20,631 bases of DNA from a virus. Shown here in pieces: positions 1 through 19,529 of this stretch (position 1 is its first letter; each line of letters opens with the position of its first letter). The translations under genes were made by a program, and so were the position numbers. The stretch spans positions 1 to 20,631 of IMG/VR virus record IMGVR_UViG_3300039046_000151; one strand, 5' to 3'. Under the pieces are notes generated by a model, which did not search any database, had not been told where the DNA came from, and saw only the letters and a list, made by a program, of their open reading frames with translations.

Positions 1-450
1 CAAAGTAATTTACATTCGCAAGGTCAGTTAGGTAAAGATTGTCCTTACCATAAAAATCAAAATAAATTTAGTGATGACTTTGAGTTACCTTATATAAAAA
101 TAATGTATCCATTTAAAATAAAAACTCCAAAAGGTTATGCTTGTTTGTTTATGCCACCTTTAAATGTAGAAAAAAAAGATTACGAGATATTGTCTGGTAT
201 TGTTGATACGGACACGTTTCCAATGTATGTAAATTTTCCTTTTAAAATGACTGGCAAAAGTAAAAAGGTTACTTTAAAAAAAGGAGAGGTTTTTGCACAA
301 TGTATTCCTTACAAAAAAGAATCTTGGAGTTTAAAAGTAAGAGCAAATAAAGATAGCAAAAGAGTACAAAAATTAAAAAAAATATTTTTTTTCTCTTATA
401 TAATAGATAATTATAAAAAAATAGTATGGAATAAACAAAGATGGAATTAA
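1..450 (+). CDS. Conserved phage protein, DUF6065-like, 5' end cut off by window
   Basis: The frame is open from base 1, so the gene starts outside the window; 149 residues are visible. An ATG at 103 exists but has no convincing ribosome site, and the codons before it read as protein, so I treat it as internal. The visible part has a TPKGYACLFMPP stretch, a GIVDTDTFPMYVNFPF stretch and a KGEVFAQCIPYKKESW stretch. This pattern recalls small beta-rich phage proteins grouped as DUF6065-like, whose function is unknown. The last residues are basic and lysine-rich. The stop overlaps the start of the following oxygenase gene by 10 bases, so the two are probably translationally coupled. Family assignment is from memory and moderate at best; that it is a real coding region is near certain. 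Confidence 0.8.
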   Translation, partial: QSNLHSQGQLGKDCPYHKNQNKFSDDFELPYIKIMYPFKIKTPKGYACLFMPPLNVEKKDYEILSGIVDTDTFPMYVNFPFKMTGKSKKVTLKKGEVFAQCIPYKKESWSLKVRANKDSKRVQKLKKIFFFSYIIDNYKKIVWNKQRWN

Positions 451-1016
451 AAGATTATATAGAAGTATCTGATAATGTTGTGCCATATCCTTTGCTAAGT
501 AAGTTTTTAGAATATTTAAACCTATGTAAATTTGTTGAAGCTAAAACCATAGGGGAAAACGAAGATGTTAAAATTCCTGCTGACAAAAAATTTAGAAACA
601 CTTATATATATCCTTTTAGAAACGATCATCCTGAATTAAGTAATGTGCATTGGCATAATTTACTTGGAAGTATTTTAATGCCAAAGTTTTTACAGTATGG
701 TAAAAAAATGAAGTGCAGACCAGACATAGGTAAAATTATAGATATAAGTGCTTTAAGGTATGATGAAGGATGTTTTTATAAGTTACATACAGATCATCAC
801 ACAAACATACCAAGAACATTATCTATGATTTTTTTACTTAATAATGATTACGAGGGTGGAGAACTGGTCTTTGAAGAGCAGTATGGTGATAACACATATA
901 CTATAGAAACTAAACCTAATAGAGTAATTGTTTGGTCATCAAGTTTTTTATTTCCACATCAAGTTAAAAAAGTAACGAAAGGTACAAGGTATTCAATAGT
1001 ATCATGGGCATTGTAA
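441..1016 (+). CDS. 2-oxoglutarate/Fe(II)-dependent oxygenase, prolyl 4-hydroxylase-like
   Basis: The 191-aa protein carries the full active-site set of the P4H-type double-stranded beta-helix. H116 and D118 sit in an HTDHH motif, H173 in FPHQVKK, and R183 in GTRYSIVSW is placed to bind 2-oxoglutarate. A YEGGEL motif (typical of this family) lies between them. Such enzymes use O2, Fe(II) and 2-oxoglutarate to hydroxylate a protein, nucleic acid or small-molecule substrate; the substrate here cannot be read from sequence. The N-terminal 80 residues are less conserved-looking. It overlaps the gene before by 10 bases and the second oxygenase gene after it by 13. Marine phages often carry one or more such genes, usually near structural genes. 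Fold and catalytic class are well supported; substrate is open. Confidence 0.9.
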   Translation: MELKDYIEVSDNVVPYPLLSKFLEYLNLCKFVEAKTIGENEDVKIPADKKFRNTYIYPFRNDHPELSNVHWHNLLGSILMPKFLQYGKKMKCRPDIGKIIDISALRYDEGCFYKLHTDHHTNIPRTLSMIFLLNNDYEGGELVFEEQYGDNTYTIETKPNRVIVWSSSFLFPHQVKKVTKGTRYSIVSWAL

Positions 1017-1540
1017 AATATAAACACATTCCTAATTTTTTAACTAAAGATGAATTAAAAGTGTTAGGCTATTACGTTGAGTTTAAGCATAGATTAAATT
1101 ATACTGATTTTGATGATAGACAAAGCACCATTATGGATACTTCTTATTATTCAGACCCCTTGATGGAAAGTTATTTATTAGCAAAAAAAGATAAGATTGA
1201 AAAAGAAGTTGGTGAGAAATTACACGCCACATATAGTTTTTGGAGAATGTATACAAAAGGTGCTGATTTAAAAAAACATAAAGATAGACCTTCTTGTGAA
1301 ATAAGCGTGTCAATAAATTTAAGAGATAGTGGGGAAGATTGGGCATTATACTTTGATGGCACACCAGTTGTAACTAATGTTGGTGACGCTGTAATTTACA
1401 AAGGTATGGATGTTGAACATTGGAGAGAGCCTTTTAAAGGTGACCATCAAGCACAAGTATTTTTACACTATGTAAGAGTAGATGGTAAATACGCACATTT
1501 CTCTGGTGATGGCAGACCTATGTATGGATACCCTAAGTGA
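1004..1540 (+). CDS. 2-oxoglutarate/Fe(II) oxygenase-like protein, second copy
   Basis: This 178-aa protein is not a close repeat of its neighbour but shows the same fold signature. H92 and D94 form an HKD motif after WRMYTKGADLKK; a GDAVIYKGMDVEHWRE stretch supplies the distal H139; it ends in a strand-like QAQVFLHYVR. The GDAVIY...EHWRE pattern is familiar from phage and bacterial members of the superfamily. Function would be oxidation or hydroxylation of an unknown target. The start at 1004 overlaps the end of the first oxygenase by 13 bases, and its stop overlaps the next gene's GTG start by 4 bases (GTGA), so these genes form a coupled run. A minus-strand open frame across it is only a shadow. 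An expected 2OG-binding arginine about ten residues after H139 is not obvious, so inactivity cannot be excluded. Confidence 0.82.
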   Translation: MGIVKYKHIPNFLTKDELKVLGYYVEFKHRLNYTDFDDRQSTIMDTSYYSDPLMESYLLAKKDKIEKEVGEKLHATYSFWRMYTKGADLKKHKDRPSCEISVSINLRDSGEDWALYFDGTPVVTNVGDAVIYKGMDVEHWREPFKGDHQAQVFLHYVRVDGKYAHFSGDGRPMYGYPK

Positions 1541-2298
1541 TTTTTTATACAGTAGTTACAAACAATGATATGGTAGTGCCTAACATTGATATGCCAGATG
1601 AAATCCCTTGTATCTTATATCACGACTTTGATTTCGATGTAAAACCAAAAGGATATGAATTAGTTAAAGTACCAAAACTTTTTGAAAATCCAGTTTTTAC
1701 TCAAAGATACTATAAGATATTAAGTCACAGATTTATAAGAGATGAAACTATATATTTTGATTCTACAGCTAATCTTACAAGATCAGTTATAACTAACCAA
1801 TTATCGAGAAGAGGAGCAAATATATGCACCATAAACAATTGTTACAGAAGAAGTTACTTTGATGAATTATTTGATTGGTTTATCTCAGGTTATATTAGTT
1901 TAGATCAAGCAATAAAGTTTACATCTTTTCTTAAAAACATACATTTTGATTTTACTAAATTTAGAGCTTATCACAATTGGTTTGTTTATAGAAAATATAG
2001 TCAAGAAACGATAGCATTCAATGAGTTGTGGTGGAGTTACTTTATAAAATTTGGTATAAGAGATCAACTGCCTTTTGGTATAGCCAGTGCTTATTTGGAT
2101 ATGAAACCTGCTACTCTAGAGGTAAATGAAGTATGTGACTTTTTTAACCCTAGAAAATACGATAGAGAGGATAAAGCATATCCACAACAAGTAAAAAATA
2201 AGGCACTAATAATGGATTTTAAAAATAAAATAAACAAAATATTACAACAAGATAATAAAATAAATGCAGTCATTCTAGGTCATAGACTTAACACATAA
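1537..2298 (+). CDS. Glycosyltransferase-like protein (DUF616/TOD1-type)
   Basis: The 253-aa protein starts with GTG, overlapping the previous stop as GTGA. Its core resembles the DUF616 family: a KILSHRFIRDETIYFDSTANL stretch (about residues 60-82) in the place where relatives have a 'Lys-His...Asp' nucleotide-sugar pocket, and FNELWWSYFIKFGIRDQLPF (about 162-181) matching the W-W...RDQ signature near the C terminus. Family members are predicted to be GT-A-like glycosyltransferases. The last 50 residues, lysine and asparagine rich, look like a tail without known role. It directly follows two oxygenase genes and precedes the big tail gene, a context that suggests modification of virion or host-envelope glycans. 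The superfamily call is from remembered motifs; the chemistry and acceptor are inference. Confidence 0.6.
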   Translation: MIFYTVVTNNDMVVPNIDMPDEIPCILYHDFDFDVKPKGYELVKVPKLFENPVFTQRYYKILSHRFIRDETIYFDSTANLTRSVITNQLSRRGANICTINNCYRRSYFDELFDWFISGYISLDQAIKFTSFLKNIHFDFTKFRAYHNWFVYRKYSQETIAFNELWWSYFIKFGIRDQLPFGIASAYLDMKPATLEVNEVCDFFNPRKYDREDKAYPQQVKNKALIMDFKNKINKILQQDNKINAVILGHRLNT

Positions 2299-2311
2299 CT
2301 TTATATATAAT
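2299..2311 (+). promoter_or_regulatory. Possible AT-rich promoter element before the tail gene
   Basis: The 19-base gap before the tail gene contains CTTTATATATAATAT, including a TATAAT (2306-2311). The same ten bases CTTTATATAT recur at 8312-8321, ahead of the ejection-protein block, the other place where a real gap occurs. No clear -35 is present and the DNA is very AT-rich, so chance is a serious alternative. The tail gene also lacks an obvious Shine-Dalgarno sequence here. Confidence 0.2.
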
Positions 2312-2317
2312 ATCATT

Positions 2318-4495
2318 ATGCCTTTACGAGATATAAAGATAGCACCTGGTATCAACAAGCAAGTCACACCTACTGGAGCTGAAGGAAAGTGGATTGATTG
2401 TGATAATGTGAGGTTTCGCTATGGATACCCAGAAAAAATTGGTGGATGGATACAAAACGTAGACAAAACCTTAGTTGGTGTGGCAAGGGCAATGCACATA
2501 TGGGCAGATTTAGACGGAAACAGATATATAGCCATAGGAACACACAAAGGGTTATTTTTATATTTTGAGGGAGCTTTTTATGATATAACGCCCTTAGATA
2601 CAGCTTTAACATCTTGCACTTTAACAACTTCTAATGGTTCTGCAACAGTAACAGTAAACAAAAGTTCACATGGTTTAGTAGCAGGAGATTTATTTACATT
2701 CTCTAGTGTTACCCTACCTGGTTCAGGAACAGGTTTTGTAGAAGCAGACTTTACAACAAATACTTTTGAAGTAGTAACTGTAGCAGCTAACCATAACTCT
2801 TTCACTGTTACAATGGCAAAAACTGAATCAGGAGCAGGTATAACTGCAAGTGGTAGTGTTTCAGTAAATCCATATTTTAGGGTTGGTGATGCCACACAGG
2901 TTGTTGGTTATGGTTATGGAACAGGTTTATGGGGTGGAGAAACTGCTGATCTAGTACAGTCTACCTTAAACGGAGCTTTGCTAGATGACACTGCTGGAAC
3001 AGGAGGTTCAGGAACAAGTATTACTTTAGCTTCAACATCTGGGTTTCCTACAAGTGGCACGATAAGGGTTGGTGCTGAGTTAATTACTTATACTGGTGTG
3101 TCTAGTAATGATCTTACTGGTATTACTAGAGCTCAGTCTGGCTCTAACAGATCAGCACATAGTGATGGTGCTACAGTAACTAATGCAACATCTTTTGTTG
3201 GTTGGGGAGAAGCTACTAGCACAGCAGAGGTAACGTTAGAACCTGGTAATTGGTCTTTAGATAATTTTGGAGAGGTTTTAATTGCTACTGTGCGAAATAA
3301 TAAAACTTTTGAATGGGTGCCTTCAGCTGCATCTGCTTTACAAACAAGAGCTACAGTAATTAGTGATAATCCAACTAAATCTGTTATGACTATGATATCA
3401 GACAGAGATAGACATTTAATACATTTAGGCACAGAAGAAACGATAGCAAGTGGCACACAAAATAAAATGTTTATAAGGTTTTCAAGTCAAGAAAGCAAAA
3501 CTGATTATGTGCCTACATCAACCAATACAGCAGGTACTTTTTTATTAGATTCTGGAACAAGAATTGTTGGTGCTGTAAATGCAGGAACTTATAATTTAAT
3601 ACTAACCAACACGTCTGCTTATTCAATGACTTTCATAGGTCCACCTTTTACATTTGGTATACAACAAGTTGGTAGCAACTGTGGATTGATTGCACAACAC
3701 GCTATAGTCGTTGTAAATGGAGTTGTATACTGGATGGGTCAAGCTGGTGGTTTTTATTATTATGATGGTACTGTAAAAAAACTACCTTGCTCTGTTGAAG
3801 ATTTTGTTTTTTCCACACAAGATGAAGGAGACTTAGGTTTAAACTTTGGCAGTGGAGATATAATTTTTGCTGGTTATAATTCGTTATTTAATGAAATTAA
3901 TTGGTTTTATCCTAAAGCAAACTCGTCACAGATTGATAGAGTAGTTACCTACAATTATCAAGAGGGGGTTTGGACAGTTGGTACTTTAGATAGAAGTGCT
4001 TATTATGATAAAACAATTTACGATAATCCCTATGGCACTAAATATGTTGCAACTGCAACTCCAAGTTTTCCTACAATCAATGGGGTATCTAATACCAATG
4101 GTGCATCAACTTTGTATCAACACGAATTTGGTACTGACCAAGTTTCTGCCACTGGTGCAAGTGATGCAATAATAGCTAGTATACAAAGTGGTGATTTTGA
4201 AGTGAGAGCTCCAGAGATTGGAGATGGTGAATTTTTTATTAAAATAAGAAGATTTATTCCAGACTTTAAATCATTAAGTGGTAATGCCAAAGTGACAATA
4301 AATCTCAAAGACTTTCCAAGCGATACAGAAGCAAGTAGCACTTTAGGACCTTTTACTATTTCAGGTTCTACAAAAAAGGTAGACACAAGAGCCAGAGCAA
4401 GAGCTGCAAATTTAAAAATAGAAAACGTTGCAACTTCGGAAAGTTGGAGATATGGTACTTTTAAAGCAGATGTTCAACCTGATGGAAGAAGATAA
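2318..4495 (+). CDS. Large tail protein, nozzle / DNA-stabilisation type (P22 gp10, T7 gp12-like)
   Basis: The 725-aa protein opens with PGINKQVTPTGAEGKWIDCD and FRYGYPEKIGGW. This is the N-terminal signature of phage packaged-DNA stabilisation / tail tube nozzle proteins that close the portal and connect to the tail. Residues about 100-205 form a serine/threonine/glycine-rich beta insert containing HGLVAGDLFTF. Residues about 229-290 form a second small beta module with TLASTSGFPTSGTIRVG and LTGITRAQSG, common in marine phage virion proteins. The middle and C-terminal parts have repeated W/Y-G strands (YNLILTNTSAYSMTFIG, GVVYWMGQAGGFYYYDG) as in a beta-propeller. It would act in the virion tail, as several copies in a ring. 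The gene starts 19 bases after the upstream gene and shares one base (TAATG) with the next. Confidence in a tail structural role is high; the exact equivalent (gp4, gp10 or gp12) is uncertain. Confidence 0.78.
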   Translation: MPLRDIKIAPGINKQVTPTGAEGKWIDCDNVRFRYGYPEKIGGWIQNVDKTLVGVARAMHIWADLDGNRYIAIGTHKGLFLYFEGAFYDITPLDTALTSCTLTTSNGSATVTVNKSSHGLVAGDLFTFSSVTLPGSGTGFVEADFTTNTFEVVTVAANHNSFTVTMAKTESGAGITASGSVSVNPYFRVGDATQVVGYGYGTGLWGGETADLVQSTLNGALLDDTAGTGGSGTSITLASTSGFPTSGTIRVGAELITYTGVSSNDLTGITRAQSGSNRSAHSDGATVTNATSFVGWGEATSTAEVTLEPGNWSLDNFGEVLIATVRNNKTFEWVPSAASALQTRATVISDNPTKSVMTMISDRDRHLIHLGTEETIASGTQNKMFIRFSSQESKTDYVPTSTNTAGTFLLDSGTRIVGAVNAGTYNLILTNTSAYSMTFIGPPFTFGIQQVGSNCGLIAQHAIVVVNGVVYWMGQAGGFYYYDGTVKKLPCSVEDFVFSTQDEGDLGLNFGSGDIIFAGYNSLFNEINWFYPKANSSQIDRVVTYNYQEGVWTVGTLDRSAYYDKTIYDNPYGTKYVATATPSFPTINGVSNTNGASTLYQHEFGTDQVSATGASDAIIASIQSGDFEVRAPEIGDGEFFIKIRRFIPDFKSLSGNAKVTINLKDFPSDTEASSTLGPFTISGSTKKVDTRARARAANLKIENVATSESWRYGTFKADVQPDGRR

Positions 4496-5013
4496 TGAGA
4501 TTAGATTTGTTTTCTCTACCAATTTGGATTGGTAATATTAATGCAACAAATATAAATATTGATGTATCAAATGTAAAAAAATTATGGCTGTCAAAAACAC
4601 CTTCTACACACTATCTAGGCTCTAATAATAAATTAGAACCAGAGCAAGAAAAATATGTTTTAGAAACCATAAGTAAACTAATAAGTAAAGACATTAAAAA
4701 TAAATTTAAAATATGGTTACTTAATATGTGGGTTAATGATTATAAAAAAAATGACTATCAAGAGGCACATATACATGGGGGATCAGATTTAAGTTTTATT
4801 ATATATAAAAAAGTAAACGAATCACATACAGTTTTTTACAACCCCTCAAACAAATTAATTCATGCTTTTGATATGTCAGACTTGTTTAGAGTAACTTTTT
4901 CACCACAATGCAGAGAAAATCAAATTATTGTTTTTCCAAGTTTTTTAGAACATGGTGTGAAAAAAAATTCTAATAATATTACCATATCAGGTAACATAAA
5001 AATGGAGAGATAA
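4495..5013 (+). CDS. Putative 2OG-Fe(II) oxygenase (2OG-FeII_Oxy_5-like)
   Basis: A 172-aa protein whose second half fits the phage/cyanobacterial family related to PF13759: NMWVNDYKKNDYQEAHIHGG with H92 and H94, a following strand LSFIIYKK, then FPSFLEHGVKK with H153 and a closing ISGNIKM. Relatives use HxH...H to hold iron, with the final Ser-x-Asn strand near the cosubstrate site. It differs clearly from the P4H-like enzyme at 441-1016, so it was probably acquired separately. Its start shares one base with the stop of the tail gene, an intimate coupling that suggests co-production with virion proteins. Substrate unknown. The fold call is good; activity is inferred only from retained metal ligands. 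Confidence 0.75.
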   Translation: MRLDLFSLPIWIGNINATNINIDVSNVKKLWLSKTPSTHYLGSNNKLEPEQEKYVLETISKLISKDIKNKFKIWLLNMWVNDYKKNDYQEAHIHGGSDLSFIIYKKVNESHTVFYNPSNKLIHAFDMSDLFRVTFSPQCRENQIIVFPSFLEHGVKKNSNNITISGNIKMER

Positions 5014-5036
5014 AATGCATTATATAGGAGATTTAG

Positions 5037-5213
5037 ATGTCTAAAATAGTAACTTTTATTCCAGAACCAAAATCGGAATATGATATAGAAAATCAAAGAT
5101 TAATAAATTTAGCTCTTACTCAAATTATAGAAAGATTAAATACATCTTACACAAAAGATGTACAAAACGAATCAGAGAGATTTGCTTTTTTTATGGGGTC
5201 TTCAAGTGGCTAA
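5037..5213 (+). CDS. Small conserved phage protein, 58 aa
   Basis: A short gene starting MSKIVTFIPEP and ending FAFFMGSSSG. It has a good ribosome site (TAGGAG, 5025-5030) six bases before the ATG at 5037. The middle (about residues 15-50) is a predicted amphipathic helix with NQRLINLALTQIIERLN and a DVQNESERF segment. Small proteins with an 'ENQR...ERLN...NE.ER' pattern occur beside tail and head genes in many phages, where they may be minor virion or assembly factors; no function is known to me. Its last eight bases overlap the GTG start of the next gene, which supports both start choices. Because it lies in a different frame from the next gene, it is easily missed. Confidence 0.75.
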   Translation: MSKIVTFIPEPKSEYDIENQRLINLALTQIIERLNTSYTKDVQNESERFAFFMGSSSG

Positions 5214-5547
5214 TATTTATAGAAACGCACAATTTGACTTAACTACAACTGATGTTACAGATGTATTTACCTGTCCAGCAGGCTCAAGAGCTATTGTTCA
5301 AAATGTCCACGTTGCAAATGTTGGTTCAGGTAATCATGAAATAAAAGCTTTCATATATGATAATTCTGCTACAACAGCTTTTCAGTTTGCAGAGCATACG
5401 GTAAATTCTGGTAACTCACAATCTATTGCAGATGGTACAGTTATATTAGAAGAAAACGACAAGTTACAACTTCAAGCAGATACTGGTAATGTTTTTGAAG
5501 GTACTTGTGCTATCTTAGAAATAAATCGTTCTGATTCTAATGGATAA
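5206..5547 (+). CDS. Beta-rich putative virion protein
   Basis: I place the start at GTG 5206 (MANIYRNAQFDL), preceded by GGGG at 5195-5198, rather than at the in-frame ATG 5158. The extra 16 residues from 5158 would overlap most of the second half of the 58-aa gene and do not look like family sequence. The 113-aa protein alternates hydrophobic strands and turns (VFTCPAGSRAIVQNVHVANV, KAFIYDNS, LEENDKLQLQAD, GTCAILEINR), consistent with a beta-sandwich. Comparable small proteins accompany tail or head-decoration genes in marine phages; a surface-exposed virion role is plausible. No enzymatic motif is seen. It is followed by about 40 bases without a gene. Confidence 0.7.
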   Translation: MANIYRNAQFDLTTTDVTDVFTCPAGSRAIVQNVHVANVGSGNHEIKAFIYDNSATTAFQFAEHTVNSGNSQSIADGTVILEENDKLQLQADTGNVFEGTCAILEINRSDSNG

Positions 5548-5588
5548 ATAATTCTTGCAATTTATCGTAGGTGTTTTATAACTATGTT

Positions 5589-5783
5589 ATGAAAAAAATA
5601 CAATGCACTACTGAAGAAGTTTATAGAAACAAAAAAACTAATGTGGTTTATGCATCAAAAAAAGATGCTGAACACGATATAAATAATCCTAATACTGATA
5701 CAAAACAAGAAGATATAGCAACAGATGTAAAAGTCATAGTGCCACCAGAAGCTTTATCTTTAATTTCAGACACAAAAAAATGA
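5589..5783 (+). CDS. Small conserved hypothetical phage protein, 64 aa
   Basis: I take ATG 5589 (MKKIQCTTEEVYRNK) as the start. An in-frame GTG at 5571 would add six residues but would sit inside the nearest ribosome-site-like sequence (TAGGTG). The protein is short and charged, with VYASKKDAEHDINNPNTDT in the middle and DVKVIVPPEALSLIS near the end. The VPPEAL segment is familiar from small phage proteins of unknown function found near tail genes. No membrane segment or catalytic motif. Its stop overlaps the next gene's ATG (ATGA). Role unknown; probably expressed with the late operon. Confidence 0.65.
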   Translation: MKKIQCTTEEVYRNKKTNVVYASKKDAEHDINNPNTDTKQEDIATDVKVIVPPEALSLISDTKK

Positions 5784-6004
5784 AATTTGAATATAAAGGT
5801 GAGGATATATATTGGCACTTTACCGATGCTGAAATAGATATATTGAAAAAGCAAAAACATTTAGTACTTAAAGAAGAGTCTATTAAACACATTGCTAATG
5901 TGTTTGGTAGAATAGCTACAGAGTTTAATCTCAAAGTTACAAAACCAGAACTGCAAATGAAAACTACCTCTTTGGATGATAATATTATACTAGATGATAA
6001 ATAA
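5780..6004 (+). CDS. Small hypothetical protein, 74 aa
   Basis: Starts MKFEYKGEDIYWHFTDAEID and contains a helical, charged centre (KKQKHLVLKEESIKHIANVF) and an acidic end (TTSLDDNIILDDK). It overlaps the gene before by four bases and the oxygenase gene after by eleven, fitting a tightly packed phage operon. I do not recognise a family. The size and amphipathic helices would suit a small adaptor or chaperone-like protein, but that is only a guess. Confidence 0.6.
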   Translation: MKFEYKGEDIYWHFTDAEIDILKKQKHLVLKEESIKHIANVFGRIATEFNLKVTKPELQMKTTSLDDNIILDDK

Positions 6005-6554
6005 ACTTTACACTAAGTATGCTTGTACTTGGCAAACTCAAGGAACAATATTTACTCTTAAATATGATGATGAAGAGCATATGCAAGAGTTAGAAAAAAT
6101 AATTATAGCAAACGTAGGTGCATTAGATTACAAAACAAACGTATTAGCAAAAATGACAGATTATTCTTTTTTTGTTGAGCATCCTAGTTTTAAAAAACTC
6201 GCAGAATGGTTTTATGGTAAAGTTTATGATTATCAATTGGTAAACAAACAGTTCTTACAAGAGGATAGATTTCACGCACAAATTAGAGATGCTTGGGGTA
6301 GTGTATTTAACAAAGGTGATAGTGTAAAAAGGCACGATCATCTGGGTTCAAAATACGCTTCTGCTTTATATTTTGATAATCTTGCAAATTTACAAACTGA
6401 GGTAGGAGAGTTTCAAACAGAAAGAGGATTAATCATAACAATACCAAGTCATCTCAAGCATTGGGTAGACCCTTTGTCAAACGAAGTAAATAGAATAAAT
6501 CTTGTTTGGAATTGGTTTGCAAGAACAAGTCAACAAATAAAGGATCAAATATGA
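5994..6554 (+). CDS. Putative 2OG-Fe(II) oxygenase, fourth copy
   Basis: The 186-aa protein shows AWGSVFNKGDSVKRHDHLG with H114, D115 and H116, a strand ASALYFDNL, then GLIITIPSHLKHWVDPL (H153, H156), then NRINLVWNW with an arginine near residue 166. The order matches PF13759-like 2-oxoglutarate oxygenases: proximal H-x-H/D, distal H in a 'P-S-x-x-x-H' loop, final strand. It is similar in plan to the protein at 4495-5013 but not a recent duplicate. The product would hydroxylate an unknown substrate. Its stop overlaps the start of a GT4 glycosyltransferase gene as ATGA, the closest link in the window between a hydroxylase-type and a sugar-transfer enzyme. Fold confidence good; catalytic competence inferred from conserved metal ligands. 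Confidence 0.78.
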   Translation: MINKLYTKYACTWQTQGTIFTLKYDDEEHMQELEKIIIANVGALDYKTNVLAKMTDYSFFVEHPSFKKLAEWFYGKVYDYQLVNKQFLQEDRFHAQIRDAWGSVFNKGDSVKRHDHLGSKYASALYFDNLANLQTEVGEFQTERGLIITIPSHLKHWVDPLSNEVNRINLVWNWFARTSQQIKDQI

Positions 6555-7480
6555 CACCACAAGGAGGCACAGAAATACAACATCGTTTTTTATCACATTA
6601 TGTAGATGAAAAATTATTATCTAACTTTCAAATTTGTACATCTATCCCAGGCAAAATTCCTTTATCTAAAGATAAAATAAATATACTCTGGCAAAAAAAT
6701 AGTTATGATCAACCAAATATTTATCCTTGGTTTGAAGATAAAAGTAATCACAATAAATTTGACTGGTATGTTTTTAACTCACATTGGAACTATGAAAAGT
6801 TTAGATATAAGTTTGATGTGCCTACGCACAAATGCCACGTTATAAAAAACGGAGTTACTAATTTTCCAGAAATAATTCCTTACAAAGAGGGGGATATGGT
6901 TCGTATGTTATTTCACGTCACTCCTTGGAGAGGTTTAAATGTTTTATTAGGTGCTATGCAACAATTACAAGATTGTAATGTTCATCTAGATGTGTTTAGT
7001 AGTTGTAAAATTTATGGAGAAAATTTTGAAAAAGCAAACGAACATATTTACGAGCCTTTATACGAACAAGCAAGAAAACTAGAAAATGTAAATTACATTG
7101 GATATAAAGAACATTCTTTTATTCAAAAATATATCTATCGCTATCATATGTTTGCTTATCCTAGCATATGGGAGGAAACTAGTTGTAACTCGGCTCTTGA
7201 AGCTATGGCTGCTGGTTTAATGTGTATAGTTACAGACTTTGGTGCTTTGTATGAAACCTGTTCCGAGTTTCCTGTGTATGTTACTTATGATAAAAACTAT
7301 CGTAACTTGGCTACATCTTTTGCTCACGCTATTCGAGGAGCAGTATCCACGCTACACGAACCACAAGTGTTAGAACATTTAAAGATACAACAAGACTTTG
7401 TAAAAAGATTTTATAGTTGGGAAAAGAAAAAATTAGAATGGACAAGTTTTTTACAAGGAGTATTAGATGCAAAATCATGA
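6551..7480 (+). CDS. GT4-family (GT-B fold) glycosyltransferase
   Basis: I choose ATG 6551 (MTPQGGTEIQHR), overlapping the previous stop as ATGA with AGGAT just upstream. An in-frame ATG at 6506 would lie 45 bases inside the oxygenase gene. The 309-aa protein has the N-terminal GGTE loop of GT4 enzymes, a linker FHVTPWRGLNVLLGAMQQL, and the C-terminal donor-binding signature EETSCNSALEAMAAG with the E-x7-E pair (E209, E217), followed by IVTDFGALYE. Such enzymes transfer a sugar from a nucleotide-sugar donor with retention of configuration. It is shorter than typical cellular GT4 enzymes (350-400 aa), as phage versions often are. Acceptor is unknown; tail proteins or the host envelope are candidates from context. 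Confidence 0.87.
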   Translation: MTPQGGTEIQHRFLSHYVDEKLLSNFQICTSIPGKIPLSKDKINILWQKNSYDQPNIYPWFEDKSNHNKFDWYVFNSHWNYEKFRYKFDVPTHKCHVIKNGVTNFPEIIPYKEGDMVRMLFHVTPWRGLNVLLGAMQQLQDCNVHLDVFSSCKIYGENFEKANEHIYEPLYEQARKLENVNYIGYKEHSFIQKYIYRYHMFAYPSIWEETSCNSALEAMAAGLMCIVTDFGALYETCSEFPVYVTYDKNYRNLATSFAHAIRGAVSTLHEPQVLEHLKIQQDFVKRFYSWEKKKLEWTSFLQGVLDAKS

Positions 7481-8303
7481 ACCAATTTATTCACCTGATG
7501 CTGATTGGGTTGACAATAAAAATATAAAATTATTTGTAGCTACTCCAGTGCATAGTGAAGTATCTATACACTATATGCAATCCGTTTTTAAGTTACAAGC
7601 CAAGTGTAATGAAAAGAAAATACCTATTATATTACAGTTGATGAAGTCCTCCTTAGTAACACAAGGTCGTAATTTATGTGTGTCGGAGTTTTTAAATTCT
7701 GGTTATACACACTTGTTATTTATAGATAGTGATATATTATTTAGTGCAGATTCTATTTTTAAGATGATAGAAAAAGACGAAGAGGTACTAAGTATACCAT
7801 ATCCTATGAAAGTTATTCAATGGGATAAAATTTTACAAAAATGGAGAGGTATACCAAGTATGAACGCTACACAGGCAGAAACCAGTGGTAATATGTTTCC
7901 TGTTCGTATTAAAGATAAAGAAGACGATATTACTGTTACTAATGGTATGATTGAATTGTCACACTCTATGACTGGTTGTTTACTAATCAAAAGAGAAGCT
8001 TTAGAAAAAATGAAAAAGGCATATCCAGACTTGACTATCAAGCAAGAAACTATGATAGATGGCGAAAAACAATTACGCAAAAACTTGTATAACTTTTTTG
8101 ATACGTATTACGATCCTGAAGAAAAACTGTATCTAGGTGAGGACTTTGCTTTTTCACGATTATGGACAAAAATAGGTGGTAAGTGTATGGCACTTATAAA
8201 CGAGTATATCACTCACGTTGGAGAACATCAGTTTACTGGTAGGTTAATAGACGAAATGGTAGCAATTCCCACAGATAGTATTGATACTTCAACTAAGAAA
8301 TAG
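7467..8303 (+). CDS. GT-A-fold glycosyltransferase (GT2/Anp1-like)
   Basis: A 278-aa protein starting at ATG 7467 behind AGGAG and overlapping the GT4 gene by 14 bases. It has the FVATPVHSEVSIHYMQSV N-terminal nucleotide-binding strand, a GYTHLLFIDSDILF strand with the DxD-type metal/nucleotide motif (D87-S88-D89), and a late LGEDFAFSRLW motif (E225, D226) where GT2 enzymes place the catalytic base. These features fit a metal-dependent inverting glycosyltransferase. Similar genes recur in marine phage genomes next to other sugar enzymes. It closes the accessory enzyme run; a 37-base gap with a clear ribosome site then begins the ejection-protein block. Fold call is good; donor and acceptor cannot be read. 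Confidence 0.8.
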   Translation: MQNHEPIYSPDADWVDNKNIKLFVATPVHSEVSIHYMQSVFKLQAKCNEKKIPIILQLMKSSLVTQGRNLCVSEFLNSGYTHLLFIDSDILFSADSIFKMIEKDEEVLSIPYPMKVIQWDKILQKWRGIPSMNATQAETSGNMFPVRIKDKEDDITVTNGMIELSHSMTGCLLIKREALEKMKKAYPDLTIKQETMIDGEKQLRKNLYNFFDTYYDPEEKLYLGEDFAFSRLWTKIGGKCMALINEYITHVGEHQFTGRLIDEMVAIPTDSIDTSTKK

Positions 8304-8340: not shown

Positions 8341-9105
8341 ATGGTCGCACCTTTAATACCAATAGCAGCAGGAGTTGGTAGTTTTCTTTTAGCAAAAGCA
8401 AGTGGAGCAAGTAACAGAGACGCATTAATCGCTGGTGGTATAGGTGCATTAAGTGGATATGGATTAGCAGGTGGAACATTCGGTGGTTCAATCGCTGGTT
8501 TAGGAGCAAAGTCTTTAGGAACTGCTGGTGCAATAGGTGGTGGAATAGCTGCTGGTGGACTTACACAAATGGCTATGCAAGGATCACCAGGTCAAGCTCA
8601 ACCTCTTGAAGAAATGAATGTAGGATTTAAGGGAGTTGACCCACAACAATATGCACAAGCTACACAAAATTTACAAGGTATCACACAAAGAGCAACTTAC
8701 GCTGATGCTCCGTCAACAGATGTTGTACAACCTAGTGTTTATGATTTTAGTAATCAAGAAATGTATACAGCGAAAGAAGGTGGGTTAGCAGAGATAAAAA
8801 GATTTAGAGAAGGTGGCGTGAATTATTTACCAAGCAAGACGGATCACGATGAAAACGATTATAACAATTACACTAGAGCTAAAGGTTATGTAGAAGATGG
8901 TAGTGGTAATGGTGATAAAGACGAGGACACAATGTTAGCACAATTAGCTGATGGAGAGTTTGTATCAAGAGCAGATGCAATCTTAGGTGCAGGAATTATG
9001 GAGGGTGCTAGTCCTGAAGATTTTAAAGAGATGAGAAGATTAGGTGCCAAGTTCTTTTATAAACAACAAGATCAGTTGAAAAGAATATACGACATAACCT
9101 CATGA
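8341..9105 (+). CDS. Glycine-rich putative internal virion / ejection protein
   Basis: The 254-aa protein begins with about 75 hydrophobic, glycine- and alanine-rich residues (LIPIAAGVGSFLLAKASG, then repeated GG-I-A blocks) that could insert into or cross a membrane. A Gln/Ala linker follows, and then a charged C-terminal half with KEGGLAEIKRFREGG and LADGEFVSRADAILGAG. The 'GGL...RF..GG' and 'L.DGEFV...A..GAG' motifs are typical of marine-phage virion-associated proteins near the tail genes. It heads a block of large internal-protein genes, so a role in DNA ejection or channel formation is likely but not shown. The stop overlaps the next start (ATGA). Confidence 0.6.
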   Translation: MVAPLIPIAAGVGSFLLAKASGASNRDALIAGGIGALSGYGLAGGTFGGSIAGLGAKSLGTAGAIGGGIAAGGLTQMAMQGSPGQAQPLEEMNVGFKGVDPQQYAQATQNLQGITQRATYADAPSTDVVQPSVYDFSNQEMYTAKEGGLAEIKRFREGGVNYLPSKTDHDENDYNNYTRAKGYVEDGSGNGDKDEDTMLAQLADGEFVSRADAILGAGIMEGASPEDFKEMRRLGAKFFYKQQDQLKRIYDITS

Positions 9106-9515
9106 TTAATATTGTAAAGGTTGATGTCGCAGAACATTGGACAAAAGCATCTGTAATGTTAAAAGATGCGATAGATTTAAGTAATGGTAGGCATACGATA
9201 GAAACAACCTACAACAACTTAAAAAAAGGAGTTATGAGATTGTACGCAGTTTATGTTAAAGATAAAATTAAAAGTTATTTCGTAACCCAAATTACAGTTT
9301 ATCCTGCTAAAAGTGTATATGGTATTATTTTTTGTGGTGGTAAAGAAGTTATACGACATATAAAAAAAATAGAGGCGTTTTTTAAAAATGAAGCAATCTT
9401 AAATGGTTGCAGAGGATTAGAGATTATAGGAAGAAATGGTTGGGAGAGGATCATTGATAATATTCCATCTTTAGAATTTCAAGCAAAAGGTGTGTTTTAT
9501 GAAATGGATACTTAA
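9102..9515 (+). CDS. GNAT-like small phage protein (T7 gp13-type context)
   Basis: A 137-aa protein with VYVKDKIKSYFVTQITVYPAKSVYGIIFCGG followed by a helix and a CRGLEIIGRNGWERI segment. The last segment, a G-C-x-x-L-E-I-x-G-R-x-G-W-x-R pattern, is familiar from a phage family with an acetyltransferase-like (GNAT) fold found just before ejection-protein genes; T7 gp13 occupies a similar place. Known relatives are poorly characterised and may be structural or assembly factors rather than enzymes. A clear acetyl-CoA-binding loop (R/Q-x-x-G-x-G/A) is not evident, so catalysis is doubtful. It overlaps both neighbours (4 bases before, 17 after). Confidence 0.6.
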   Translation: MINIVKVDVAEHWTKASVMLKDAIDLSNGRHTIETTYNNLKKGVMRLYAVYVKDKIKSYFVTQITVYPAKSVYGIIFCGGKEVIRHIKKIEAFFKNEAILNGCRGLEIIGRNGWERIIDNIPSLEFQAKGVFYEMDT

Positions 9516-19253: not shown

Positions 19254-19529
19254 ATGAGAAAAAGTAAAGGTTATGCCAAAGGTGGAGCTAAGATGATGAA
19301 AGCTATGAGAGGTCAAATGGCTGACAGACCTATGAATAGTGGCACTATGTCTAAAGGTACAAGAGCAAGACCTATGAAAGCTATGAAGGGTAAGATGGCT
19401 AAAGGTTATGCCAAAGGTGGAGCTAAAATGATGAAGGCTAAAAGAGGTAATATGGCTAATATGTCTTTAGCACAAGCAAAAAAAGTTTTAAAAGCAAATA
19501 ATATGAAAGCAGTAAAAATTAAATCATAA
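19254..19529 (+). CDS. Hyper-basic repeat protein, 91 aa
   Basis: ATG 19254 follows AAGGAG (19244-19249). The protein is rich in Lys, Arg, Met, Gly and Ala. It has two copies of KGYAKGGAKMMKA-x-RG-x-MA (residues 5-23 and 50-68) and a shorter copy PMKAMKGKMA between them. The C terminus (SLAQAKKVLKANNMKAVKIK) looks like a basic amphipathic helix. This composition suggests binding to nucleic acid or to an acidic partner, perhaps as a packaged condensing protein; the acidic gene lies two bases upstream. 'KGYAKGG' segments occur in small marine phage proteins of unknown function. No enzymatic motif is present. Confidence 0.68.
   Translation: MRKSKGYAKGGAKMMKAMRGQMADRPMNSGTMSKGTRARPMKAMKGKMAKGYAKGGAKMMKAKRGNMANMSLAQAKKVLKANNMKAVKIKS
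19266..19457 (+). repeat. Two 57-base direct repeats inside the basic gene
   Basis: Bases 19266-19322 and 19401-19457 align over 57 bases with about six differences, starting AAAGGTTATGCC in both. They are 135 bases apart start to start. A shorter related block (about 19372-19400) lies between. In-frame internal duplication is the likely origin. Confidence 0.85.

Follow-up and report, generated by a model that had tools for sequence, protein, structure and literature searches.

Modification-type enzyme genes of a pelagiphage-like virus record: an oxygenase cassette that may tailor a tail adhesin, and a separate glycosyltransferase pair

The closest described systems for the genes considered here are found in the Pelagibacter phages HTVC023P and HTVC027P (HTVC023P-type pelagiphages), in which several oxygenase genes and a pair of glycosyltransferase genes accompany the virion genes. 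The same order of virion genes and glycosyltransferase pair, again with several oxygenases, was found in the entire 20,631-base IMG/VR virus record IMGVR_UViG_3300039046_000151, the whole of which was analysed and is hereafter called the window (G+C 33%). These two phages are its nearest cultured relatives, and a host from SAR11, the most abundant bacteria of the ocean, is presumed because of this kinship; a megablast search of the window against INPHARED gave no match at the DNA level. Genes are named by their start coordinate (Table 1). HTVC023P shares with the window a 1004-type gene, which is named ferrochelatase there. Unlike the window, neither cultured phage has 1537 or an oxygenase directly before 6551, and the window has 4495 added right after 2318.

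Seven genes of the window had been taken in a sequence-only reading for four oxygenases and three glycosyltransferases that may act in one pathway of hydroxylation followed by glycosylation. The seven open reading frames (ORFs) and their placement in modification-enzyme families hold in comparisons with Pfam, PHROG, folds and motifs: 441, 4495 and 5994 are oxygenases by family match and 1004 by its predicted prolyl-4-hydroxylase (P4H) fold and HxD...H motif, and among the glycosyltransferase-like genes 1537 has a predicted GT-A fold, 6551 is GT4-like and 7467 has an invariant DSD motif. The single pathway does not survive, since the genes fall into two separate units and the oxygenases and 6551 occur without each other. 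The tentatively favoured explanation, held with a little less than even confidence and drawn from sequence comparison, is that the seven enzymes make up two units and two loose oxygenases, and that the first unit tailors a tail adhesin.

An oxygenase cassette beside the tail adhesin genes

A total of 159 loci were mapped, nearly all of them retrieved with a 6551-family or 2318-family bait. One of these, L002, is 99.99% identical to the window across 7.9 kb and reaches beyond its left edge; its gene order is a tail69 gene, an ORF of 150 amino acids, a complete DUF6065 gene, 441, 1004, 1537 and 2318. The enzyme genes had been described as alternating with tail genes, and 2318 does encode a virion structural protein, but the tail gene itself lies to the left of the window edge and is visible in L002.

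DUF6065, 441 and 1004, with or without 1537, form a co-conserved cassette of overlapping genes beside tail adhesin genes. In 73 loci spanning the interval from a tail69 or collar gene to 2318, DUF6065 was present only alongside the 1004 family (17 of 17; Fisher 5e-10), and the 1004 family was accompanied by an oxygenase of the Oxy_3 type (O3; the Oxy_5 type is called O5) in 26 of 27 cases (Fisher 8e-8), both values being uncorrected for ancestry. An overlap of 13 nt joins the O3 and 1004-type genes in 20 loci, and the overlapping cassette genes are probably translated together. In the cyanophage ACG-2014f the two are fused into one protein of 362 amino acids annotated as 'ferrochelatase', with residues 11-182 matching the 1004 family and residues 187-361 matching O3; because of this fusion, the products of 441 and 1004 are probably functional partners. 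A tree of O3 proteins places the 441 product in the DUF6065-partnered clade. The 441 family retains H116 and H173, and D or E at position 118, in 51 of 51 members as an iron triad, and the R or K at position 183 that binds 2-oxoglutarate (2OG) in 50 of 51.

The cassette lies in a block that is exchanged between relatives. Rightwards of about position 2273, loci L003 and L090 share 93-95% identity with the window, and leftwards their content is different; the exchange boundary falls at about this position, just before 2318. The left block of L090 encodes a radical SAM enzyme together with two O5 oxygenases and another 2OG enzyme, and adjoins a pair of genes, one with a weak match to an immunoglobulin (Ig)-like domain (adhesin-type). 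In a comparison of 72 loci, enzyme set and adhesin type were associated: minus-strand oxygenases were present in 16 of 21 collar-type loci and in 0 of the 51 others (5e-12), and the DUF6065 module in 17 of 36 loci without a collar or glycine-rich gene and in 0 of the 36 with one. A DUF6065 homologue of a halovirus is also located near genes annotated as glycine-rich adhesin and tail fibre.

Gene 1004 and its ferrochelatase label

No match for the 1004 protein was obtained in a Pfam search, and its PHROG match was to phrog_2954, 'ferrochelatase' (2e-50). An AlphaFold2 (AF2) model built from 40 sequences had a predicted local distance difference test score (pLDDT) of 94.4 and a predicted template modelling score (pTM) of 0.90. 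With Foldseek the best match of this model was P. putida P4H (1.5e-8), PBCV-1 vCPH and PHD2 were also among the matches, and at E<=0.001 there were 439 PDB matches with prolyl-4-hydroxylases first; a PDB sequence-profile search with the 1004 family gave nothing significant. The Fe-binding residues H92, D94 and H139 (HxD...H) are each conserved in 43 of 44 homologues. The usual Arg/Lys position for 2OG is not conserved in this family, and R81, R95 and R141 are conserved elsewhere. For the ferrochelatase family PF00762 no match at E<=10 was found in nine phage genomes (including five named records that have the 1004 family), and 10 of 14 control genomes did match. The absence of a PF00762 match and the P4H fold argue against a ferrochelatase identity for 1004. 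The phrog_2954 'ferrochelatase' thus appears, from this model, to be another oxygenase, with the double-stranded beta-helix fold, that may use 2OG.

A cluster 'Hyp. with ferrochetalase domain' was already present in Sullivan et al. 2010 and presumably corresponds to the 1004 family, and an S-SM1 protein of the 1004 fold is named 'Ferrochelatase' in BFVD. In two later papers, the 1004-type 'ferrochelatase' is read as an iron or haem partner of the oxygenase (PMC9599517; Wittmers et al. 2022, mSystems) and the phrog2954 'ferrochelatase' is a headline auxiliary gene (PMC11561400; ISME J 2024). No correction from ferrochelatase to oxygenase was found in the accessible portions of the few papers found on phage ferrochelatase together with 2OG-Fe oxygenase, and an earlier one elsewhere is possible. 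Because phrog_2954 appears to be an oxygenase and not a ferrochelatase, haem and iron readings that rest on this label need revision. A 1004-type gene adjoins a helicase-like gene in L205:6073-6741 and L206:6048-6668, in a replication region instead of a tail region.

The glycosyltransferases and the Oxy_5 oxygenases

The AF2 model of 1537 had a pLDDT of 84.5 and matched an alpha-1,3-galactosyltransferase in Foldseek (6e-5; template modelling (TM) score about 0.47). PF04765 (TOD1_MUCI70) gave no match for 1537 itself and was matched by 4 of 21 family members (best E 0.0024); the bit scores of two relatives, 16.3 and 14.8, fell below the curated cut-off of 21.4. The modelled 1537 protein is therefore probably better described as TOD1-like, with a GT-A fold, than as a TOD1/MUCI70 member proper. 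Relatives of 1537 led to a second lineage of T4-like phages (gp23 matches of 1.6e-151 in G015 and 1.6e-153 in G018), in which an Oxy_3 oxygenase that retains H-C-E, the distal H and K lies between a GT25 gene and two to five tandem 1537-family genes. With this oxygenase as the only bait, 61 loci were read and the counts made by hand; they do not amount to 61 independent events because some contigs are near-duplicates. GT25 directly precedes the oxygenase in 58. Of the 59 loci in which a gene follows the oxygenase, 55 have a 1537-family gene in that place, and psbA comes next in many. The sole INPHARED record with the 1537-family enzyme of this operon is the single-cell virus AG-345-D19. A cyanobacterial host is likely on the basis of psbA. 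In this lineage the module belongs to glycan assembly, because its wider cluster contains a GDP-mannose-type epimerase and GT17, GT10, GT2 and GT11 genes. In the O3 tree its oxygenase clusters with O3 proteins from pelagiphages of the collar type, and some of these phages have a 1537-type gene. Linkage of an oxygenase to a 1537-type glycosyltransferase was found in three contexts, and it recurs in unrelated phages, since the oxygenase-only bait retrieved the operon.

The expected association of oxygenases with glycosyltransferases therefore stands for the 1537 family, but it fails for 6551 and 7467. An oxygenase gene immediately precedes the 6551 homologue in only five of 121 loci (the window, L002-L004 and L074), mostly close relatives, so that co-occurrence of 5994 and 6551, a test set beforehand, was not borne out. 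The start-stop overlaps that had been read as linking oxygenase to glycosyltransferase are both real and of 4 nt (GTGA at 1537, ATGA at 6551), but they do not single out such pairs, because 12 of the 22 junctions in the window overlap. In loci numbered as retrieved by the neutral 2318 bait and extending at least 4.5 kb downstream, a 6551 homologue was present in 20 of 21, regardless of the oxygenase count. The 6551 gene was found without any O3, O5 or 1004-type match in three near-complete genomes (G007, G008 and G009); conversely, HTVC033P and HTVC008M carry oxygenases but lack a 6551 homologue.

In 108 of 110 loci the 6551 homologue is directly followed by a 7467 homologue, and the gene ends almost always overlap. 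The 6551 product is 57% identical to HTVC023P gp77 and 55% identical to HTVC027P gp80; 7467 matched no family of known function, and its DSD, GED and HVGE motifs are invariant in three aligned homologues. PDB sequence-profile searches gave nothing significant for the 7467 family and nothing at E<=0.001 for 6551. Both families are found in the same T4-like host groups, namely phages of Sinorhizobium, Caulobacter, Stenotrophomonas, Rhizobium and Ochrobactrum, which suggests that 6551 and 7467 act together without need of the oxygenases. In the three such phages examined (DLP_6, Cr30 and vB_OspM_OC; L209, L210 and L211) the two homologues are at separate loci, with that of 7467 in a DNA-replication cluster beside clamp and clamp-loader genes; in Cr30 the 6551 homologue is beside UDP-glucose epimerase and heptose genes. 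For gp72-74 and gp80-81 no expression timing is stated in the accessible text of the transcriptome paper on HTVC027P.

The iron motif of the O5 family is HxH...H in 49 of 54 sequences and HxD...H in the other five, so that the iron site may be one of three histidines. The 2OG-binding column has R or K in 42 of 54 members and a gap in 4495. With 5994 as bait only three close IMG/VR relatives were retrieved, and HTVC027P gp74 is a distant homologue.

Table 1. Features of the window and related loci.
Feature	Position	Strand	Evidence
DUF6065 gene, 3' part (dUTPase-like similarity); first member of cassette	1..450	+	PF19541 1.5e-8, phrog_7084 2e-23
2OG-Fe(II) oxygenase, Oxy_3 / P4H type	441..1016	+	PF13640 2.3e-18
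Predicted P4H-fold Fe(II) oxygenase, widely mislabelled 'ferrochelatase' (phrog_2954); cassette member	1004..1540	+	AF2 fold and PDB matches
Predicted GT-A-fold glycosyltransferase, TOD1/MUCI70-like; last gene of cassette	1537..2298	+	AF2 and Foldseek; PF04765 in relatives
Virion structural protein, conserved; anchor gene	2318..4495	+	phrog_3287 5e-85; 48% identity to HTVC023P gp72
2OG-Fe(II) oxygenase, Oxy_5 type, HxH...H	4495..5013	+	PF13759 1.1e-9
2OG-Fe(II) oxygenase, Oxy_5 type, HxH...H and Arg167	5994..6554	+	phrog_81 1.2e-13; PF13759 2e-4 (below curated cut-off)
GT4-like glycosyltransferase, core pair member 1	6551..7480	+	PF00534 (Glycos_transf_1) 1e-11, 45.1 bits, cut-off 26.4
GT-A-type (DSD) glycosyltransferase-like protein, core pair member 2	7467..8303	+	phrog_1574 2e-31; motifs
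P4H-fold 'ferrochelatase' copies of cyanophages/pelagiphages (phrog_2954, phrog_3531)	window 1004-1540; L005:5340-5960; L175:5968-7056		
Radical SAM enzyme with further 2OG oxygenases, replacing the left cassette of the window	L090:8544-9968; L003:486-1910		
GT11-GT7C-GT25-oxygenase-(TOD1-like GT)n operon, psbA-linked T4-like phages	L183, L214-L287, L212		

Elsewhere in the window, the best PHROG match of 9102-9515 was weak (7e-4) and to families of unknown function, and 19254-19529 encodes a basic repetitive protein with KGYAKGGAKMMKA repeats.

Readings of the locus and known systems

From the identities, folds, synteny, exchanges and associations described above we infer the substrates, the partnership, complex formation and the order of reactions in the following scheme. 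The first unit (DUF6065, 441, 1004 and 1537) would be an exchangeable cassette, flanked by the tail adhesin genes and 2318, that hydroxylates the neighbouring tail adhesin or an accessory protein, and a 1537-type enzyme, where present, would glycosylate the adhesin or accessory protein; replacement of the adhesin would then bring replacement of the cassette. The genes 4495 and 5994 would be further insertions of the same oxygenase class. The second unit, 6551 and 7467, would belong to the core genes of HTVC023P-type phages and act, independently of the oxygenases, as a two-step glycosyltransferase pair on a virion or envelope acceptor. An extension of this scheme to marine tailed phages at large is distinctly doubtful: exchangeable adhesin-maturation cassettes, in which oxygenases of the P4H type are combined with glycosyltransferases of the 1537 type and, in relatives, with radical SAM enzymes, would tailor the adjacent adhesin by post-translational modification, host recognition would be set by enzyme chemistry as well as by adhesin sequence, and the psbA-linked operon would be a second use of the module. 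Several observations weigh against adhesin tailoring. The exact order DUF6065-441-1004-1537 is limited to the window and near relatives, the 1004 family is also found in replication modules of G001 and G002 without an adjacent adhesin, and in the cyanophage-like lineage the module is in a surface-glycan-type cluster. The association of enzyme set with adhesin type could also come from hitchhiking within a single exchangeable block, and the tests of it were uncorrected for ancestry shared between contigs.

Remodelling of the host surface, in which the glycosyltransferases and tailoring oxygenases alter lipopolysaccharide (LPS) or envelope glycan, for example to block superinfection, is unlikely but is the strongest competitor. 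It keeps this standing because of those replication modules and the glycan cluster of the second lineage; the neighbours of the Cr30 6551 homologue, and the argument that pelagimyophage glycosyltransferases modify the O-chain (PMC7029224), also favour it. Yet no sugar-nucleotide gene was found in the window, the enzyme genes are interleaved with virion genes, and the enzyme sets follow adhesin types. It is improbable that the oxygenases are independent cargo acting on host metabolites, DNA or the 2OG pool, with proximity to tail genes resulting from frequent recombination. Variable positions, both strands and many non-orthologous oxygenase copies (also PMC9599517) would fit such cargo, as would the 1004-type gene in replication modules and the 2OG-pool role proposed for cyanophages (PMC3037559), whereas the non-random association of DUF6065 with O3 and the 1004 family, the fusion protein and the conserved oxygenase-1537-family order in unrelated phages would not.

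Glycosylation of phage DNA by 6551 and 7467, as by T4-type DNA glucosyltransferases, is recommended by the replication-cluster position of 7467 homologues in three T4-like phages, but is highly improbable. Neither PF00303 (thymidylate-synthase/hydroxymethylase-type) nor PF02511 (ThyX) was found in 18 genomes, 16 of them with the 6551 gene, and DNA glucosyltransferases were for this reason rejected as the main reading of the pair; G007-G009 are also without the oxygenases tested, the pair is in the late virion block of HTVC023P-type phages, and the accessible text of the DLP6 and vB_OspM_OC papers holds no evidence of DNA glycosylation. A single collagen-like pathway, with hydroxylation by all four oxygenases and glycosylation of the hydroxylated residues by all three glycosyltransferases, can be very nearly dismissed. 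It draws on the overlapping gene pairs and on the operon with GT25, a family that includes collagen galactosyltransferases besides LPS galactosyltransferases. Against it stand the double dissociation of the oxygenases and 6551, a link of 5994 to 6551 in near relatives only, and collagen-like GXY runs that do not exceed eight triplets in about 5,800 ORFs of relatives; for 6551 and 7467 it is largely refuted by the absent co-occurrence.

Prolyl-4-hydroxylases (P. putida P4H, PBCV-1 vCPH, PHD2) resemble 1004 in predicted fold and in the Fe-binding HxD...H motif, and differ from it in sequence (<=17% identity in most top matches) and in the usual 2OG Arg/Lys, which 1004 lacks. T4-type DNA glucosyltransferases, compared here by gene content and position, are alike in that there are two phage glycosyltransferases, one with homologues in the replication cluster of some T4-like phages, and unlike in the hydroxymethylase-type gene, not found in the 18 genomes, and the late-block position. 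The idea of virus-encoded hydroxylation followed by glycosylation is shared with Mimivirus L230 and the collagen lysyl hydroxylase-glycosyltransferase LH3, so far as the accessible text of PMC5802723 and PMC6082870 goes; unlike in these, no oxygenase-glycosyltransferase fusion and no long collagen-like run were seen here, and the glycosyltransferase families are others. One cyanophage carries 24 2OG oxygenases (PMC9602691). In the loci compared here oxygenases occur as sets tied to adhesin types and, for the 1537 family, to particular glycosyltransferases, and the tail adhesin and surface glycan are therefore concrete candidate substrates.

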